Source of the DNA: Gammaproteobacteria bacterium
GTDB taxonomy: Bacteria > Pseudomonadota > Gammaproteobacteria > SG8-11
Length of the DNA stretch: 35,544 nt
Assembly: GCA_024641505.1 (NCBI GenBank)
Contig: JAHECY010000037.1
Span: 1 to 35,544, forward strand
Direction of reading: 5' to 3'
The notes beneath the pieces are model-generated. The model had not been told where the DNA came from. It saw only the letters and a program-made list of their open reading frames with translations, and did not search any database. Shown here piece by piece: positions 13,858 through 24,240 of this stretch (its first letter is position 1; each line of letters opens with the position of its first letter). The position numbers and the translations under genes were made by a program.

Positions 13858-13919
13858 CACGCCTGGTACTTCTCGGGCGGGTCATACTACTTTAAAAAAA
13901 TGGGAAACTAGGAGCATTC

Positions 13920-14180
13920 ATGATTAAGGCAGACAAGTCTAAACGAACCTTTTTCAAGAAGGTGGCGGCGGTAGTAGGTTTCGTTGCGGCGGCGGACTAT
14001 CTGGGCAATCTGATGTCCGTGCGCGGCAATCCGATTCAACAGGCCAATGATAATAGTGAGTATGATGTAAATAAGCAGAAGAAGGTGTTGCTGCAGAAAC
14101 AACTGGTATCCATGACTGACAACGATAAAAAACAGATGCTTGATGAACTCCTTGATATCCACAACAAGAATCACGCATAG
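13920..14180 (+). CDS. Small Tat-like protein in front of the FeS/NrfD/cytochrome cluster
   Basis: The 86-residue protein starts with a twin-arginine-like signal with Lys in the first position (SKRTFFKK, residues 7-14) followed by a hydrophobic stretch (AAVVGFVAAADYLG). The mature part is about 50 charged residues and contains no Cys or heme motif. Its C-terminal QLVSMTDNDKKQMLDELLD resembles residues 63-81 of the next protein (HFVLMSEEDKKEAINRLE), so the two share signal plus motif but only the second has the ferredoxin domain. A TAGGAG site lies 5 nt before the ATG. Function unknown; it could be a small subunit or an export or assembly partner of the complex. Confidence 0.75.
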   Translation: MIKADKSKRTFFKKVAAVVGFVAAADYLGNLMSVRGNPIQQANDNSEYDVNKQKKVLLQKQLVSMTDNDKKQMLDELLDIHNKNHA

Positions 14181-14215
14181 TTTTCCTTACCCAGCATTCG
14201 CAATTGGAGACGTTG

Positions 14216-15283
14216 ATGTCAGACGATAGAGCCGAGACCAACAATAAAAAGGACGACGTAACAACAAGTCGTCGCGATTTCCTGAAGAATATCGGTATTG
14301 CAGGCGCATCGACGCTGATGGCAGGCAGTGCTTCGGCAGGAGTACCCGCAGACTCCCCTGATCCCGATGCCGAGTCAACGGCCGCGGAATGGCTGCAAGG
14401 ACATTTTGTGCTCATGTCCGAAGAGGACAAGAAGGAAGCGATCAACCGTCTGGAAAAAAGATATACCGCTAAATATGACAAGAAGACGACCGTCGCTAAC
14501 ACGCCTCCTTTGGAAGGCGTATTGTTCGGTTATGCCCTCAATATTGGTAAATGCATCGGTTGCAGGCGTTGTGTACATGCATGTGTGCAGGAGAATAATC
14601 AGTCCCGTACCAACCCCGTCATTCACTGGATTCAGGTAATGAAGATTCCTAAAGGGAATTTCGCATTTACCGCCGACAAATTGAACGATGGTTATCCGAA
14701 ATCCAGCGCGTTTGGCGATTACGGCGTACAGGTTGGCGGAAATGCTTACGCCCCCGTCGGCGGGCTTGCTACTGAGCATGCGCAGAGTTATTACTCGGCA
14801 GATGAGATGGTGCCTGATAAGGATTATTTCTATGTTCCCGTCCAGTGCCAGCAGTGTGAAAAGCCGCCTTGTGTCAAGGCCTGCCCCGTAAGAGCAACCT
14901 TCCGTGATCCTAATGGCGTGGTTGTGATCGATTACAACTGGTGTATTGGCTGCCGCATGTGTCAACTCGCATGCCCTTATCAGGCACGGCGCTTTAATTG
15001 GGGCGAGCCTAATCTTCCTCCCGAGGAGATGAATCCAAAAACCCACTATTTCGGAAACAGGCCACGGATGAGAGGGGTCATGGAAAAATGCACATTCTGT
15101 GTGCAAAGGACAAGGGAGGGCAGGAATCCCGCCTGTTTGGAGGCTTGTCCCGTGGGCGCCAGAAAATTCGGCAATCTCCTCGATCCTGAGAGTGATGTCA
15201 GAAAAATTCTGGCCACGAAGAAGGTTTTCAGGTTCAAGGAAGAGATGAGCACCTATCCGAAATTCTTTTACTATATTGGCTGA
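14216..15283 (+). CDS. Tat-exported ferredoxin-like subunit with four [4Fe-4S] motifs (DsrO/HmcB/NrfC type)
   Basis: The 355-residue protein has a Tat signal SRRDFLK (18-24) and so should face the periplasm. Four Cys quartets are complete: C113/116/119/123, C211/214/219/223, C243/246/249/253 and C292/295/307/311, giving four predicted [4Fe-4S] clusters. Such subunits relay electrons between a membrane NrfD-type quinone protein and a periplasmic partner; here the partner should be the tetraheme cytochrome two genes downstream. Residues 63-81 carry a motif shared with the preceding small protein. I chose ATG 14216 (GGAGA 5 nt upstream) over TTG 14204. Distance to the next start is 9 nt, so this is an operon. 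Confidence 0.88.
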   Translation: MSDDRAETNNKKDDVTTSRRDFLKNIGIAGASTLMAGSASAGVPADSPDPDAESTAAEWLQGHFVLMSEEDKKEAINRLEKRYTAKYDKKTTVANTPPLEGVLFGYALNIGKCIGCRRCVHACVQENNQSRTNPVIHWIQVMKIPKGNFAFTADKLNDGYPKSSAFGDYGVQVGGNAYAPVGGLATEHAQSYYSADEMVPDKDYFYVPVQCQQCEKPPCVKACPVRATFRDPNGVVVIDYNWCIGCRMCQLACPYQARRFNWGEPNLPPEEMNPKTHYFGNRPRMRGVMEKCTFCVQRTREGRNPACLEACPVGARKFGNLLDPESDVRKILATKKVFRFKEEMSTYPKFFYYIG

Positions 15284-15292
15284 GTTCACAAC

Positions 15293-16528
15293 ATGAAAAA
15301 AATACTGTCTTTTGTGGCCGACTTTGGTTCATATGCCATAAATGGAGGGACAAAGTACAAGGCATGGCTTATTTTCCTCCTGTTCATCATCGTGACAGGC
15401 TTTTACACGGCATACATACAGTTATCCGAAGGCCTGATCGTGGTCGGCGCATCGGACCAGGTGCCGATGGAATTGTTTTTTGCAAACTTCATTTTCACGG
15501 CGCACGTCGCGGCGGCTGCAATATTGGTGGTGGCGCCCGGCTACTTCTATCATCGCAAGGATATGAAGGAGCTTGCGGTGATCGGCGAAATCATCGCCAT
15601 GGTTTTTGTGGCCACGGGCATAACTTTTATCCTGTTTCACATGGGCAGACCGGACCGGTTGTGGCATATGGTGCCATTTCTGGGTTATTTGAACTTCCCC
15701 AATTCAATGCTGGTATACGATACGATCGTTTTGAACGTGTATCTGTACCTCAACCTTATCGGCATTTCCTATATTCTATACAAGAAATATGTCGGCGAGT
15801 TTGATACCAAAGCGTTGGCCAGGTGGTTCACGCCGGTTATCTATCTGGCCATCATATGGGGACCGCTCATTCACATCTGCACGGCGTTCGTGCTTAGCAG
15901 CAATGCAAGGATGGGCGCGTGGTCAACGGCGGTCATGCCTTTCGGGTTTCTGGCAATGGCGGGTGCCTCGGGTCCTTCATTGGTGATATTGCTATTCCTG
16001 CTCATCAGAAAGTACAGCAAGCTTCATATCAACGATTCTGTTATCGATTTGATGTCGACGATCATCGGATGGAGTCTTGGCATCATCATGCTGGTGTTCG
16101 CCGCCGAGTATTTTACGGCGCTGTACTCGAATACCGAGCACGCCGCCCCGCTGAATTACAGCATGTTCGGACATAATGGGCTCAACATGTACGTACCTTG
16201 GTTCTGGGGAACGGTGGTAACAATTGTCGTCAGTTTTGTTGCGATCCTCAACCCGAAGATCAGGAAGAGCTATGATCGCTGGCTGCCAATTCTGTGCGTT
16301 GTAATTTTCTTGGCGATTTTGATGGAAAAACCAATGATGCTTGTGTTTCCCGCTTTCAGCCCCTCGCCTCTCGGAGAATACACCGAATACCATCCCACAT
16401 TTATTGAGCTATACAATGTGGTGTTGACTTGGGCTGTCGGATTCTTGTCGTTGACCCTATTGGTAAAGGGTGCGGTCGGCATATTGACCGGCGAAGTGAA
16501 GTACAGCAAACCGGTAGATGCCGCCTAG
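15293..16528 (+). CDS. NrfD/PsrC-type polytopic membrane protein (quinone-interacting subunit)
   Basis: The 411-residue protein has about ten predicted membrane helices and matches the NrfD/PsrC/DsrP/HmcC type of subunit, which has no cofactor and exchanges electrons with the quinone pool for an attached FeS protein. The segments HMGRPDRLWHMVPFLGYLNFPNSMLVYDT (about 119-147, the family RP..W region) and the N-terminal GTKYKAWL are typical. It lies directly between the ferredoxin and cytochrome genes, which is strong support for a membrane complex. Direction (quinol oxidation or quinone reduction) cannot be read from the sequence. Confidence 0.88.
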   Translation: MKKILSFVADFGSYAINGGTKYKAWLIFLLFIIVTGFYTAYIQLSEGLIVVGASDQVPMELFFANFIFTAHVAAAAILVVAPGYFYHRKDMKELAVIGEIIAMVFVATGITFILFHMGRPDRLWHMVPFLGYLNFPNSMLVYDTIVLNVYLYLNLIGISYILYKKYVGEFDTKALARWFTPVIYLAIIWGPLIHICTAFVLSSNARMGAWSTAVMPFGFLAMAGASGPSLVILLFLLIRKYSKLHINDSVIDLMSTIIGWSLGIIMLVFAAEYFTALYSNTEHAAPLNYSMFGHNGLNMYVPWFWGTVVTIVVSFVAILNPKIRKSYDRWLPILCVVIFLAILMEKPMMLVFPAFSPSPLGEYTEYHPTFIELYNVVLTWAVGFLSLTLLVKGAVGILTGEVKYSKPVDAA

Positions 16529-16606
16529 ACCGGTCTATGAACTCAAGATTCTTTTGCGTGACGTAGTGCAAGCGGTCACGTCTGGCTTATGCCGGACAGG
16601 TAGCTT

Positions 16607-17494
16607 GTGAACAGATTAAGAAGGACATTCATTAAGATGAAACCGCAGATCGCACCCACGACAGTAATAATTGTTCTTGCCCTGTTCGCTGTTGTTGCTG
16701 GTGGCCTGGCGCTGGTGGGTGGCTTGGATACCCAGAAGGCCAAATCTACCGCAGTGGAGGAACAGGCTAAAGCAACAGACGCGCAGCCAGTGACCGACTG
16801 TTTTGAAAGCAGGGTAGCTTACACGGCCGTCACCAGGACCGAGAACATCGTTCCCCAGTATGGCTATCCAAATATAAAATGCTCACCTAAGACCAGCGGT
16901 GTTTTGTGGTATGGAGATCCATTTGACGGAACGATACCCATGGGCGAAATGCCGGAAGTGACTGATGCCACGCGCGGCGATTTCGTCAATGCCGTTGTCA
17001 AACCGCGAGAACCACGTTTGACCTACTTCAACATGGGGCCTGACGGCTGTGCAACTTGTCACAACGGCACAATGGTGGTCTTTCCAAAGGATAAGAAACC
17101 AAGGTTGATCACGATGCATCAAGACATCGTCGCGAATTCCCTTCAGTTGCAACATGGCCGCGGGGCAATATGGTGTCTCGATTGTCATAGCGCCACAAAC
17201 CGTAACAAGCTGGTCGACCGACAGGGAAGAGAGTTCAGCTTCAATCAGCCCCAAAGACTATGCGGCTCCTGTCATGGCGAGGTTTATATTGATTGGCGAG
17301 AAGGCATACACGGAAAAAGAATAGGCGCTTGGGCTACCGGCGGTAAAAAGAGATGGTGGGTATGCACTGAATGCCACAATCCACATACCGTTCAAACCAA
17401 TAGATTTAATCCAATCAATGCTGAATTGCCGCCGCCTCCGCCAAAGGGCATGAAGAACGCCGATCACGAACGTGTCGGGCAAAACGAACATTAA
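16607..17494 (+). CDS. Membrane-anchored tetraheme cytochrome c
   Basis: From GTG 16607 the protein has 295 residues (an ATG at 16637 gives 285). One N-terminal hydrophobic segment (about 18-40) is likely an uncleaved anchor, leaving the rest in the periplasm. Four CxxCH heme motifs are present: CATCH 148-152, CLDCH 190-194, CGSCH 219-223 and CTECH 253-257. Histidines such as H171, H183, H235 and H260 are candidate distal ligands. A poly-proline stretch (PPPPP) lies near the C-terminus. It is the likely periplasmic electron partner of the FeS/NrfD proteins. I cannot assign it to a named system such as DsrJ (three hemes) or HmcA (sixteen hemes). Confidence 0.9.
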   Translation: MNRLRRTFIKMKPQIAPTTVIIVLALFAVVAGGLALVGGLDTQKAKSTAVEEQAKATDAQPVTDCFESRVAYTAVTRTENIVPQYGYPNIKCSPKTSGVLWYGDPFDGTIPMGEMPEVTDATRGDFVNAVVKPREPRLTYFNMGPDGCATCHNGTMVVFPKDKKPRLITMHQDIVANSLQLQHGRGAIWCLDCHSATNRNKLVDRQGREFSFNQPQRLCGSCHGEVYIDWREGIHGKRIGAWATGGKKRWWVCTECHNPHTVQTNRFNPINAELPPPPPKGMKNADHERVGQNEH

Positions 17495-18140
17495 TCCCGG
17501 ATTATCCGCCAGCCAGATTACGCCGGTGGCGATAACGGACGGGTGCCCGGTGTTGGCGCTCTCAGGCATTGAGGGCCAAGCGCTATAGGTTATTTACAGT
17601 GGCTGTAGCAACCGGGCGCGCCATCCTTTTCCAGCTTGCGCTAAATCGTGGGATTTCCGTGTATCAGTGCTCAACTGACCGTCTTCCTGACTGGTGTGTG
17701 CAAGGCTAATGCAAAAAGTATTTCTGAGGCAAGAAATCAGGCATTTCCGGGGTCATCACTGCGGAAGTTGCCGTCTTCAATCGGTCCGGGCAGTAGCTTC
17801 CTGTTTAAGTCACCTGCCATGTAGGGTGCTATCGGGGTATCTATCAGTGATATTGATGCAGATATAAAGGCAGCTTAATGTTGTAGTAACATCCCCTCTG
17901 TGAGTTGACGCATGAAACATTTCGAGCGCGACGATTCCGCCCATAAAACTGTATCTGGCGGGCTTGGCTAAAGATCAATATTTGTGATTTTTTTCGCCTG
18001 AACTTTTGGATAATTGCGGGTATTATTGGCGTGCTTTTTCGGCCATGAAAAGGCTTCCGGAAGAGGGGGCTGATGGTGCCCGAACAATAACGGAAGGTGT
18101 GATTGTTTTCATTAACACGAAATTAAATTGGGAGTCAGTA
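17495..18140. other. Intergenic region between the cytochrome and DsrE-family genes
   Basis: About 650 nt without a supported gene. A weak imperfect stem (TTATCCGCC ... GGCGATAA, within 17508-17541) follows the cytochrome stop but has no T-run. AT-rich stretches at 17980-18030 and 18095-18130 could hold the promoter of the DsrE-family gene, but no clear -35/-10 pair stands out. The open frame upstream of 18141 in the DsrE frame has no signal-like sequence and is not likely translated. Confidence 0.4.
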
Positions 18141-20923: not shown

Positions 20924-21400
20924 TTACAGCGGCTTCACCCGGAACAATGCCACTTCCACCGACGTTACTACAACCCGGGTGCCGGCGGCGATTTCCTGGA
21001 TGCCGGTCTCATGATCGATTTCCACACGCCACTCGATACCGGAGTAACGTTTATGACCTGGCACGGTCACGCTGATCGCCTGTTCCAGAGTGAATTCCAG
21101 TCCCACCAAATCACTGCTATTGTCTTTCTTAATTGCTTCCTTGCCCTGCAGGCTTTGCAGGGGTTTCCAGAGCAGCGCGGAACTGAGACCGGTGCTGATG
21201 CCGAAGCCGGCGATACCGGCGAGCCAGGTCTCCGGCAGGGCGCCCGCCAGCATCAATAAGCCGGTAATCAAGGCGCCCAATCCGGCAAACAGCAGCACCA
21301 CTGTGGTAAATCCCAGGAGCAGCGCCTCCACCGCCAGCAACGCGAAGCCGGTGGTGATCCAGAATTCCGCCAGGTGGCTGTTGATGTAGGCCGCGATCAT
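20924..21400 (-). CDS. NfeD-family membrane protein
   Basis: The 158-residue protein has three or four membrane helices in the first 85 residues and a C-terminal OB-fold domain (LVGLEFTLEQAISVTVPGHKRYSGIEWRVEID ... GTRVVVTSVEVALFRVKP), typical of short NfeD proteins (YbbK/YuaF type without the protease domain). It overlaps the SPFH gene upstream by 4 nt, so the two are translationally coupled. NfeD and SPFH proteins act together in membrane-domain organisation or protein quality control; the exact task in this organism is not known. Confidence 0.9.
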   Translation of the reverse strand: MIAAYINSHLAEFWITTGFALLAVEALLLGFTTVVLLFAGLGALITGLLMLAGALPETWLAGIAGFGISTGLSSALLWKPLQSLQGKEAIKKDNSSDLVGLEFTLEQAISVTVPGHKRYSGIEWRVEIDHETGIQEIAAGTRVVVTSVEVALFRVKPL

Positions 21401-22356
21401 CTTGCGTTGCTACTCTCTGGCCGGTTATTCATGGCGTTGATGATCGCCATGGCTTCGGCGACAACTTTAGAAGCGTTGGTGTCGCCGTCCGGCAGCAACA
21501 CCACCGAGGATTCCCGTGCGATGGCTTCGCGTGCCTGGATGGCCTTGCCCGCCAGTTCCAGCTGGATTGCCTTCTGCCCGGTTTCGGAAATGGCGATCTT
21601 GCCAATGACGTCCAGGGCCTTGGCCTTGGCTTCGGCGACGGCGAGAATGGCCTGGGCTTCACCCTCGGCTTTTAGAATTTGCTCGGCTTTGATGGCCTCC
21701 GCACCCAATACCCGCGATTGTTTTTCGCCTTCCGCGACATTGATGGCGGATTGCCGTTGACCTTCGGATTCCAGAATGACGGCGCGCTTTTCGCGCTCAG
21801 CCTTCATTTGTCGTTCCATGGCTTCGAGCACCGAGCGTGGTGGTTCGATATCCTTGATTTCGTACCGCAATACCTGTACCCCCCAGGGGACGGCGGCGTC
21901 ATTGATCGCGGCGACGATATTGATGTTGAGGCTGTCCCGTTCTTCGAAGGTTTTGTCGAGCTGCATTTTGCCGATTTCGCTGCGCATGGTGGTTTGCGCG
22001 AGCTGAGTCACCGCATAAATATAATTTTCCACGCCATAGGAAGCTTTGTAAGGGTCCAGTACTTTCAGATACAGCACACCATCCACCAGCAGGGAGATAT
22101 TGTCCTTGGTAATGGCGGCTTGGCGCTGGACATCGACGGCCTGCTCTTTCAGGGTGCGGCGGTACGCCACTTTGTCGATGAACGGCATCAGGAAGTTGAG
22201 ACCGGCGTCCATGGTTTTATTGTATTTGCCAAAACGCTCGACCACGAAGGTGGTGTTTTGCGGCACGAAGCGCAGGGATGCTTTGACAAAGACGATGGAC
22301 AGTATCGCCAGGCCGGTCCAAAAACTGAAAATAAGTCCTAAAAACTCTTCAAGCAT
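21397..22356 (-). CDS. SPFH/band 7 (stomatin-like, QmcA-type) protein
   Basis: The 319-residue protein has an N-terminal membrane helix (about 7-28), the SPFH domain (NTTFVVERFGKYNKTMDAGLNFLMPFIDKVAYRRTLKEQAVDV), the conserved GVQVLRYEIKDIEPPRSVLEAMERQMKAEREKRA, and a long Ala/Glu-rich coiled coil (about 190-265). This matches E. coli QmcA and paraslipins, which form large ring-shaped membrane assemblies. The ATG is preceded by GAGGATATAACC. It forms a two-gene operon with the NfeD gene. Confidence 0.93.
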   Translation of the reverse strand: MLEEFLGLIFSFWTGLAILSIVFVKASLRFVPQNTTFVVERFGKYNKTMDAGLNFLMPFIDKVAYRRTLKEQAVDVQRQAAITKDNISLLVDGVLYLKVLDPYKASYGVENYIYAVTQLAQTTMRSEIGKMQLDKTFEERDSLNINIVAAINDAAVPWGVQVLRYEIKDIEPPRSVLEAMERQMKAEREKRAVILESEGQRQSAINVAEGEKQSRVLGAEAIKAEQILKAEGEAQAILAVAEAKAKALDVIGKIAISETGQKAIQLELAGKAIQAREAIARESSVVLLPDGDTNASKVVAEAMAIINAMNNRPESSNAR

Positions 22357-22689
22357 GGTTATATCCTCGTTTATTCTTTTTGCGCCATGATTACTGCCGC
22401 CAATTTACTACGTGAGGCGGATGGCTGCCAGGGTTATTGCTTCTGTGCGCAGCGTTATGAAGGAAGAAGGGATAAATACCAGGGAAACCGACAGGAACAA
22501 AAACGGAAATCAGTAAATTGACAGCAAGGGGAAAAAAGCAGGATTCAGATTAGGGCAGAATTGGGGTGGGCTCGGCGAGAGAATACAGAGCTGGCCAGCG
22601 TCCGGCACTCACCCGAGAATACCGAACACTGACCACATTAAAATCAAAAATATCGTTGTGGGTACTGGGTACCGACCACAATCGGAGGA
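22357..22689. other. Intergenic region upstream of the SPFH gene
   Basis: This 333-nt stretch must hold the minus-strand promoter of the SPFH-NfeD operon and the 3' end of the Gly/Met peptide transcript. I find no clear -35/-10 pair. A palindromic GGGTACTGGGTACC segment (22661-22674) could form a small hairpin after the peptide gene, but it has no strong T-run. Confidence 0.35.
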
Positions 22690-22833
22690 CTACATCCCGC
22701 CGCCGCCGCCACCCATACCGCCGCCACCGCCGCCCATACCGCCGCCGCCCATGCCGCCGCCGCCCATACCGCCGCCGCCCATACCGCCGCCGCCCATTCC
22801 ACCGCCCATTCCACCGCCCATTCCACCGCCCAT
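22690..22833 (-). CDS. 47-residue peptide made only of Gly and Met
   Basis: From ATG (22831-22833) the product is 47 residues with only two amino acids: 10 Met and 37 Gly. Met occurs after 3, 3, 3, 4, 4, 4, 4, 6 and 6 Gly, so spacing grows in steps toward the C-terminus, which is also Met. A perfect AAGGAG (complement of 22841-22846) lies 7 nt before the ATG, arguing for real translation; the frame continues upstream to 22890 but the site favours the short form. It has no signal peptide. Its function is unknown. Possible ideas are a metal-binding (thioether) or structural peptide, or just an expanded simple repeat. It lies 213 nt downstream of the His-rich membrane protein on the same strand. 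Confidence 0.6.
   Translation of the reverse strand: MGGGMGGGMGGGMGGGGMGGGGMGGGGMGGGGMGGGGGGMGGGGGGM
22693..22830. repeat. Simple-sequence tract of CCGCCGCCCAT-type units
   Basis: The coding region of the Gly/Met peptide is a tandem array of 12-, 15- and 21-bp units built from (CCN)n plus CAT on the plus strand. Units of the same class are nearly identical, so slippage or recombination can change copy number in frame. Confidence 0.8.
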
Positions 22834-23046
22834 AACACGACTCCTTATAACAGTTTGACTCATCAACTCAGTTGCTGCACTAGCAAGCAACGACCTGGGG
22901 TTAGTTAAACAGGTTCATATTAACTACAAGTGATGGGTTTATTACCCGGGGCTTACCTAAAAATTACAGGGCCTTACAGATACCTTACGGAAATCTTAAC
23001 GATTTTTTTAATGCAATGATAATAAAGGAAAAATGAAGAAATTCAT

Positions 23047-24240
23047 CTAATGGAACAGGAGCTCTTTGACGTCCCTGTTTTTAAACCGCCACAGGACATT
23101 GTCGATGAAATAGTGGTGAATGTTGATGAAGGCGAGAAACGCGATCAGAAAGAAGCTGACGCCGTTATTAGCGCGCGTATCAAGTGTGCGATCCAGGCCA
23201 CTGGGGAGATAATCAAAGGCGAGGTAACCAAGCAAGCACATGAGGCCAAAGAAAATGCCAAGCCGTAAATAGGCACGGGGACGTCGCGCGCGCTGATAAC
23301 GACTGCGTTCGACTTTGGCGACAAAGGGGAAGTATTGCAGGGAATGAAAAAAAGCGATCATGTAAAAATATTGCGGCTGTCCCGCCAAAGGAATATGCCA
23401 GGTCAACAAGGCCAGCATGGGCACCAGAAAATTGCCGCTGGGTATCATCCGGTGCTTCAGGTAGTTGCGGATCAGTAACACCACGATCGCAGCGAACATA
23501 AACCCAACAAGCACATAGCTCGCCTGAAACCAGACATAAGGCAAATTCAAACGGTGGATGGTGAGATTATAAAACGGGTAACTGCCTTCGGCGCAATTGC
23601 TGTACAACCAGGTCAGCCACCAGGTGCTGAGCAGGCTGTAGCGAATGAGGTTGCGTTCCAGCGTCGACAATCGGTAGTTATCCAGCTTGGCATACACCAT
23701 CATGCACCCAAAGGTTTGTTTGGCGTAGTGCCAGCCGACCGTAAAATACATCAATACTATCAAGTGCCCCAGGATTTCAGAGCCCAGGTTAGGATGCAAG
23801 CCGACACGGGTGCGTAATCCCAAGGCCGCAAACAGGCTATTGGTCCCGGTGATGAGCGCGCTATCAGCGATCGGGGTCTGGTAAAAAATCAGGCCCATCA
23901 GAATGAGTGCGAGCAGGGTGATGGGAACCGCGATCAATTGGAACCAGTTGTCCCGAATAAAGGGGCTGCCTTGAAAATAGGCCAGTTTGTAAGATGCCAT
24001 GAAGTGCGGATAGTTAACCCAGTAGGCGAGTACAAATGCAATGCCGGGGAGCGCCAGAGTTGCGGTCTGAACATTGCTGAACTGGCCTTGCAGGAAATAC
24101 GTGGGTATCCACAGCGCTATGCTCAGGCCGCCGAGCAGCAGGAAATCGAGGTTGCGTGATCCGAAAAGACAGGCCTTTTGTTCCTGGGGCAGGATGACCG
24201 GGCGGTCTAACGTTGCGGCGCTGGTATTTTCCATGGTCAT
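23047..24240 (-). CDS. Uncharacterised polytopic membrane protein with conserved-looking histidines
   Basis: The 397-residue protein has about nine or ten predicted membrane helices. Histidines lie in or next to helices in short motifs: NYPHF (H79), LGHL (H159), GWHYAKQTFG (H171), TWHIPL (H282), FFHSLQYFPF (H299) and NIHHYFIDNVLWR (H375, H376). This pattern could bind metal or heme, as in some membrane oxygenases, but I do not recognise the family and do not assign an activity. The C-terminus is basic and cytoplasmic-like (RFKNRDVKELLFH). The ATG at 24240 is followed two codons later by another ATG that could also serve. It diverges from the DUF2251-like gene. Confidence 0.72.
   Translation of the reverse strand: MTMENTSAATLDRPVILPQEQKACLFGSRNLDFLLLGGLSIALWIPTYFLQGQFSNVQTATLALPGIAFVLAYWVNYPHFMASYKLAYFQGSPFIRDNWFQLIAVPITLLALILMGLIFYQTPIADSALITGTNSLFAALGLRTRVGLHPNLGSEILGHLIVLMYFTVGWHYAKQTFGCMMVYAKLDNYRLSTLERNLIRYSLLSTWWLTWLYSNCAEGSYPFYNLTIHRLNLPYVWFQASYVLVGFMFAAIVVLLIRNYLKHRMIPSGNFLVPMLALLTWHIPLAGQPQYFYMIAFFHSLQYFPFVAKVERSRYQRARRPRAYLRLGIFFGLMCLLGYLAFDYLPSGLDRTLDTRANNGVSFFLIAFLAFINIHHYFIDNVLWRFKNRDVKELLFH

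Follow-up and report, generated by a model that had tools for sequence, protein, structure and literature searches.

The window analysed here, a 35,544-nt contig of a gammaproteobacterial genome, carries on its minus strand an open reading frame (ORF) running from ATG to TAG at 22833-22690, which reads MGGGMGGGMGGGMGGGGMGGGGMGGGGMGGGGMGGGGGGMGGGGGGM and encodes 47 residues, 37 Gly and 10 Met. The Gly runs of the product are, in order, 3, 3, 3, 4, 4, 4, 4, 6 and 6 residues long. The original prediction for this DNA had described a Gly/Met-only 47-residue product with AAGGAG 7 nt before its ATG, and every number in it was right. The locus has the following features:

22690..22833, minus strand: gene of a Gly/Met-only microprotein (termed here GM peptide), 47 codons plus TAG, from translation
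22841..22846, minus strand: Shine–Dalgarno (SD) sequence AAGGAG, 7 nt 5′ of the ATG
22942..22988, minus strand: five tandem GTAA(G/T) direct repeats, spaced 11/10/11/11 bp, upstream of the gene
22656..22681, minus strand: imperfect hairpin TTGTGG..CCACAA with a run rich in T after it, a possible terminator noticed by eye and not picked by the scan
22592..22635, minus strand: strong stem-loop with a 19-bp stem, lying 3′ of the gene, a possible terminator or mRNA stabiliser
23047..24240, minus strand: upstream neighbour, a 397-aa polytopic membrane protein of no family
21397..22356, minus strand: downstream neighbour, an SPFH/band-7 protein
20924-21400: NfeD partner of the SPFH/band-7 protein

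The frame of the GM gene stays open for a further 27 codons upstream, with a possible TTG at 22890 and a possible ATG at 22863. Because several relatives have a stop codon 3–11 codons ahead of the corresponding SD-ATG, translation probably begins at the 22833 ATG. A mirror-image, Pro-rich plus-strand ORF (22658-22858) is merely the complement of the Gly/Met repeat.

In the sister species, G001 (public record UBA6920), the 397-aa membrane gene (66% identical) likewise adjoins the GM gene, and G002 has a homologue of it with no adjacent GM gene. Since the two genes stand side by side only in the sister species, the membrane protein says little about function, and it was rejected as a functional partner on the same ground of confined synteny; the proposal that it is His-rich did not survive a count from the translation, which gave only 11 His (2.8%). 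The SPFH/NfeD pair was rejected as a fixed partner, as the upstream neighbourhood differs in G001. Elsewhere in the window, at 13908-17494 on the plus strand, genes for an Fe–S protein, NrfD and a multihaem c7-type cytochrome make up another respiratory cluster.

At least part of the GTAA repeat box (GGTAAGCCCC-GGTAAT) is kept in the sister species, where the alignment reveals conservation of GGTAAGCCCC-GGTAATA..AC.CATCA and less of the surrounding sequence. When the region was resampled 200,000 times with a Markov model, four GTAA units of this kind arose 5 times, and the exact four-unit pattern was found at only two other sites of the genome, both intergenic and ahead of paralogous YgaP-like membrane proteins. 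Of these two boxes, which lie in L217 and L220 at about 1501-1537, one adjoins a multicopper oxidase pair and the other a MauG-like di-haem peroxidase. The repeat spacing resembles that of OmpR/PhoB-family response-regulator binding sites, and the GM gene may be regulated through these repeats; the boxes at the GM gene and the two YgaP-like genes could possibly define a small regulon. A sigma-70 promoter scan of the region found none upstream on the minus strand, and neither an Rfam scan of the window nor a plasmid search returned a match. The 3′ stem-loop has no other match in its own genome and was rejected as a dispersed REP element. Among other family members, the terminator scan picked a clear candidate in L119 and none in L086, L190 and L209, and we therefore claim no conserved terminator.

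The GM gene family

Comparison with related sequences makes it almost certain that the window tract is a real gene, translated in its own right and belonging to a family of Gly/Met-only microproteins. This family is previously undescribed and multi-copy, and occurs in a few scattered gammaproteobacteria. At least 12 further free Gly/Met genes were found, in the sister species, in the window's own genome (two) and in about ten gammaproteobacterial metagenome genomes. At the same site of G001, the membrane gene is followed by TAAGGAGAGTGTTATG and MGGGMGGGGGMGG, TAAGGAG again stands 5′ of the gene, and the repeat is cut off by the end of the contig. In the window's own genome (G000), a search at DNA level brought up another free gene on contig C164, with GGAGGATACGACT-ATG, MGGGGMGGGGGGGMGGGGMGGGGGGGGGMGGGM and TAG, and a further copy lies on contig C106 at the SpeE locus considered below. 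Scanning 84,980 species with a sequence pattern gave 109 stretches, each of which was translated at its site. Free GM genes were confined to gammaproteobacterial or unplaced proteobacterial metagenome-assembled genomes (HyVt-444, SZUA-152, Hainich H32, NC_groundwater_932, 4_1_July_SF_Bin9, WH4.bin33 and UBA6920), their absence elsewhere resting on exact patterns, which can miss variants; the remaining matches were segments inside longer proteins or unrelated reading frames. A second pattern, with no SD required, added G002, G003 and further WH4.bin33 copies.

The 12 complete genes comprise 297 Gly codons (GGC 150, GGT 107, GGA 39, GGG 1), 90 Met codons and just three codons for anything else. 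All complete GM genes keep the frame, with the SD 5–8 nt from the ATG, and vary almost only at third codon positions, a restriction that is difficult to account for unless the peptide is under selection. GGG is avoided, since it accounts for 1 of 297 Gly codons here against 44 of 417 (about 11%) in the long ORFs of the window. The window gene itself combines an SD, a start, an in-frame stop, a frame kept in relatives and third-position variation. A GGAG-containing SD, 5–8 nt upstream, was present in nine relatives searched without an SD requirement (G000 C164, G002, G003, G097 C66, G097 C131, G037, G310, G000 C106 and G001 C85), in agreement with the original prediction that the SD is unlikely to have arisen by chance. 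That prediction had also named what would speak against a gene, namely frame-breaking length changes in relatives or the lack of a translation signal; neither was found, and a translated gene is strongly supported.

Gly runs are 1–9 residues long in the 12 complete genes and reach 12 in G037; that is, Met spacing varies. All genomes of the family are apparently metagenome assemblies, and contig ends or N gaps interrupt several tracts, on G000 C106, G001 C85 and C189, G037 and G310, whose true lengths are therefore uncertain. Such breaks lie in L208 near 17391-17500, in L204 near 5321, at the contig starts of L202 and L209, and at the contig end of L036. Counts of GM genes in public genomes are therefore probably too low, and the lengths given too short. 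No signal peptide was seen on the free members. A signal-like N-terminus occurs only in a 118-residue GGM-repeat protein of G097 C139 (L171, L194); three free GM genes occur in that genome as well.

The assertion that no family of this kind had been described held up: Pfam, NCBIfam and PDB sequence searches with the GM peptide gave no match, and a literature search found no free Gly/Met-only peptide, such stretches being met only as the GroEL/Hsp60 tail. That C-terminal tail (GGM repeats ending in GGMM) is like GM modules in consisting of Gly and Met only, in following a disordered linker and in ending with Met. However, it is part of a chaperonin and is built of GGM units, whereas GM genes are free, have their own SD and stop, and mostly place at least three Gly between Met residues. 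A GroEL tail was rejected as the identity of the window gene, a free 47-aa ORF with no attached chaperonin 60-kDa domain and with relatives closed off by the upstream stops.

The SpeE-MFS locus

The family has a recurrent genomic layout in which an approximately 1,030-aa fused MFS/spermidine-synthase-like gene ('SpeE-MFS') is divergent from the GM gene, often with an MsbA-like ABC exporter beyond. Neighbouring genes were called with a simple longest-ORF script, and family-library scans covered part of them. A GM or poly-Gly gene is divergent from SpeE-MFS in eight genomes (G000, G001, G002, G003, G037, G040, G248 and G310), the layout spans at least five families, and an MsbA-like ABC gene lies near eight GM loci. 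SpeE-MFS was present in 9 of the 369 gammaproteobacterial genomes sampled, including all four in the same sample that were confirmed GM-positive with the blind pattern (hypergeometric p about 1.7e-7), and in 5 of the 7 genomes from the blind collection scan. Exceptions occur in both directions: G095 and G096 have GM genes and no SpeE gene, and G137 and G168 have the SpeE gene with no free GM gene nearby. A phylum-wide search for the SpeE gene found it in the window's own genome alone among 398 genomes. Within the class, we are confident that the GM family is linked to the SpeE locus.

Several genomes have, after the SpeE gene, genes for a c7-type cytochrome, a molybdopterin oxidoreductase, an Fe–S protein, NrfD and ActD (the last in two), a set that makes up an alternative-complex-III-like respiratory cluster. 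SpeE-MFS stands directly ahead of such a cluster in six genomes (L207, L208, L189, L190, L209 and L210).

The SpeE-site gene of G000 and G001 starts MGGGGGGGGG after AAGGAGATTACT and breaks off at a contig end or N gap. The G001 copy (C85) has Met and nine Gly before the gap, and 11 Gly and a stop after it, the far side reading GGT..GGT TAA in the Gly frame; its readable product is polyglycine, with no internal Met in the readable part. The window copy itself lies away from the SpeE locus and is, as far as seen, specific to the genus. It is an extra copy, a paralogue by composition and SD and not by synteny.

GM modules on redox proteins

Gly/Met modules also occur on large redox proteins. Cytochromes of the window's own genome have signal-like N-termini and, at the C-terminus, a PA-rich linker and a pure Gly/Met tail ending in Met, the same architecture as the GroEL/Hsp60 tail:

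L221:1984-11808 (G000:C131:13983-23807), plus strand: 3274-aa cytochrome, 129 CxxCH, PA linker and GM tail
C216: 2071-aa cytochrome, 79 CxxCH, PA linker and GM tail
C45: 1180-aa cytochrome, 43 CxxCH, PA linker and GM tail

The protein with 129 CxxCH motifs is, to our knowledge, among the most haem-rich predicted proteins. A fourth multihaem protein of the genome, on C216 or C45, has 51 CxxCH motifs and a tail of Gly, Thr and Met that lies at a contig edge, and G001 too has a GM-tailed cytochrome. In a hand-picked, non-random set of genomes, 11 of the 12 GM genomes had relatives of the multihaem proteins, as did 3 of the 10 remaining ones. A two-gene multicopper oxidase in G099 and G168 carries GM segments at the N-terminus and in a loop of its second half. 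In this split enzyme (L195:12489-14694 and L212:10465-12686), the first half is of Tat type and the GM-rich second half has no signal peptide; in a similar pair of the window's own genome (L225:3507-5373), the first half may be disturbed at its 3′ end. In G003, a small peptide with its own SD consists of a GM block and a Pro/Ala block. Taken at sequence level, GM modules appear tied to redox proteins that would be mostly extracytoplasmic, although the tails may be plain flexible linkers, functionally unrelated to the free peptides.

Possible roles of the GM peptide

Taken whole, the best explanation is a real GM gene family together with a flexible envelope polymer acting with GM-tailed redox proteins, a reading that we put forward tentatively, at somewhat less than an even chance. 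An envelope/redox context for the peptide is about evenly balanced, and a self-associating polymer role is a more doubtful part. The chain would range from unstructured to polyglycine/polyproline-II-helical, with Met side chains protruding, and would act through composition and length, not through a folded site. We prefer a flexible, polyproline-II-prone chain because the part of the GroEL tail made only of Gly and Met populates polyproline II helices in which Met faces outward (PMC12571646); that part is functionally important (PMC11978752). A polymer-like role is favoured over a structured Met site because composition is conserved and register is not. The suggestion of a flexible structural peptide fits best. 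The most likely site of action would be the cell envelope of bacteria rich in extracellular electron-transfer machinery, where the free peptide could be a partner or filler associating with the GM tails of redox proteins, its Met residues making it sticky through hydrophobic contacts and weakly reactive towards Cu(I) and oxidants. For a peptide with no signal sequence, the MsbA-like ABC transporter encoded nearby is a guess at the export route. A bolder and quite improbable version makes GM modules a common adhesive, in which free exported chains and cytochrome tails would co-assemble as polyglycine-II bundles into an extracellular conductive layer with copper oxidases.

The snow flea antifreeze protein has a GGX repeat of period 3. 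One of the polyglycine-II bundle proteins discussed in PMC12571646, it resembles the GM peptide as a Gly-rich chain able to form polyproline II helices, whereas the GM peptide is bacterial, has Met every 4–7 residues and is presumed to take that form.

The rival that survives best, though unlikely, is copper or soft-metal binding, whereby Met thioethers of a disordered peptide, and likewise of GM segments, would bind Cu(I) (or Ag/Hg), buffering or chaperoning the metal. The Met-rich segments of CueO are a precedent. Like the G099 and G168 oxidases with their N-terminal and loop GM segments, CueO has a Met-rich segment on a multicopper oxidase, and an oxidase pair also stands at one of the only two other GTAA-box sites; the CueO insert is nonetheless part of an enzyme, with no free Gly/Met gene described. 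Against metal binding, GM genes have no conserved Met spacing (Gly runs 1 to 12), the classic MxM/MxxM spacings are rare, runs of 9–12 Gly would waste most of the chain, and the SpeE-locus copy of G001 lacks a readable internal Met. The idea that regular Met spacing binds copper is therefore not supported as stated, and a structured copper site becomes less likely. Because the module occurs in multicopper oxidases and multihaem cytochromes, it may still have a looser metal or redox role.

More doubtful again is an oxidant sink, in which Met residues would be sacrificial scavengers recycled by methionine sulfoxide reductase (Msr). Most members are rich in Met, the envelope context is redox-active and a thioredoxin-like gene adjoins the Hainich copy. 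The hypochlorite defence of Azospira offers a precedent in MrpX, a small Met-rich peptide, likewise proteobacterial, which the title of its paper (Melnyk 2015, cited in PMC7464077) describes as periplasmic and paired with Msr; the GM peptide, by comparison, is mostly Gly, has no signal peptide and has no Msr gene in the scanned neighbours. An Azospira-type scavenger was rejected as the identity of the 47-aa product, which has no signal and, by Pfam, no Msr among the nearest genes scanned, and Met content varies across the family and may be nil in one copy.

Modified, exported peptides of RiPP type are improbable. A neighbouring exporter, an Asn-synthase-like amidotransferase and a 2OG-Fe(II) oxygenase would here modify and export GM peptides, in keeping with the eight MsbA-like ABC genes, with Asn synthase homologues at G000 C164 and G099, and with a formyltransferase and a 2OG oxygenase in G002/G003. 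However, the exporter has no peptidase domain and the modifying genes differ between loci; a RiPP precursor was rejected as the identity, as the Gly/Met-only chain has no leader and no usual modifiable residues. Equally improbable are low-complexity genes of no conserved function, spread by GGN/ATG repeat copying and kept by drift, since triplet-repeat composition, repeated copies in one genome and variable lengths are outweighed by the SD, start, stop and frame retained in every complete copy, by third-position variation and GGG avoidance, and by a place next to SpeE that is conserved across at least five families. We rank the flexible polymer above copper binding, the oxidant sink and the modified, exported form.

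Gene products made of two amino acids escape homology searches and low-complexity filters, and assemblies break inside such genes; genomic position lets GM genes be followed despite their repeat composition. If the link with GM-tailed giant cytochromes is functional, it would offer a handle on how the cell surface retains extracellular electron-transfer proteins with dozens to more than 100 haems, together with a Gly/Met polymer for testing that is natural and encoded in a genome.
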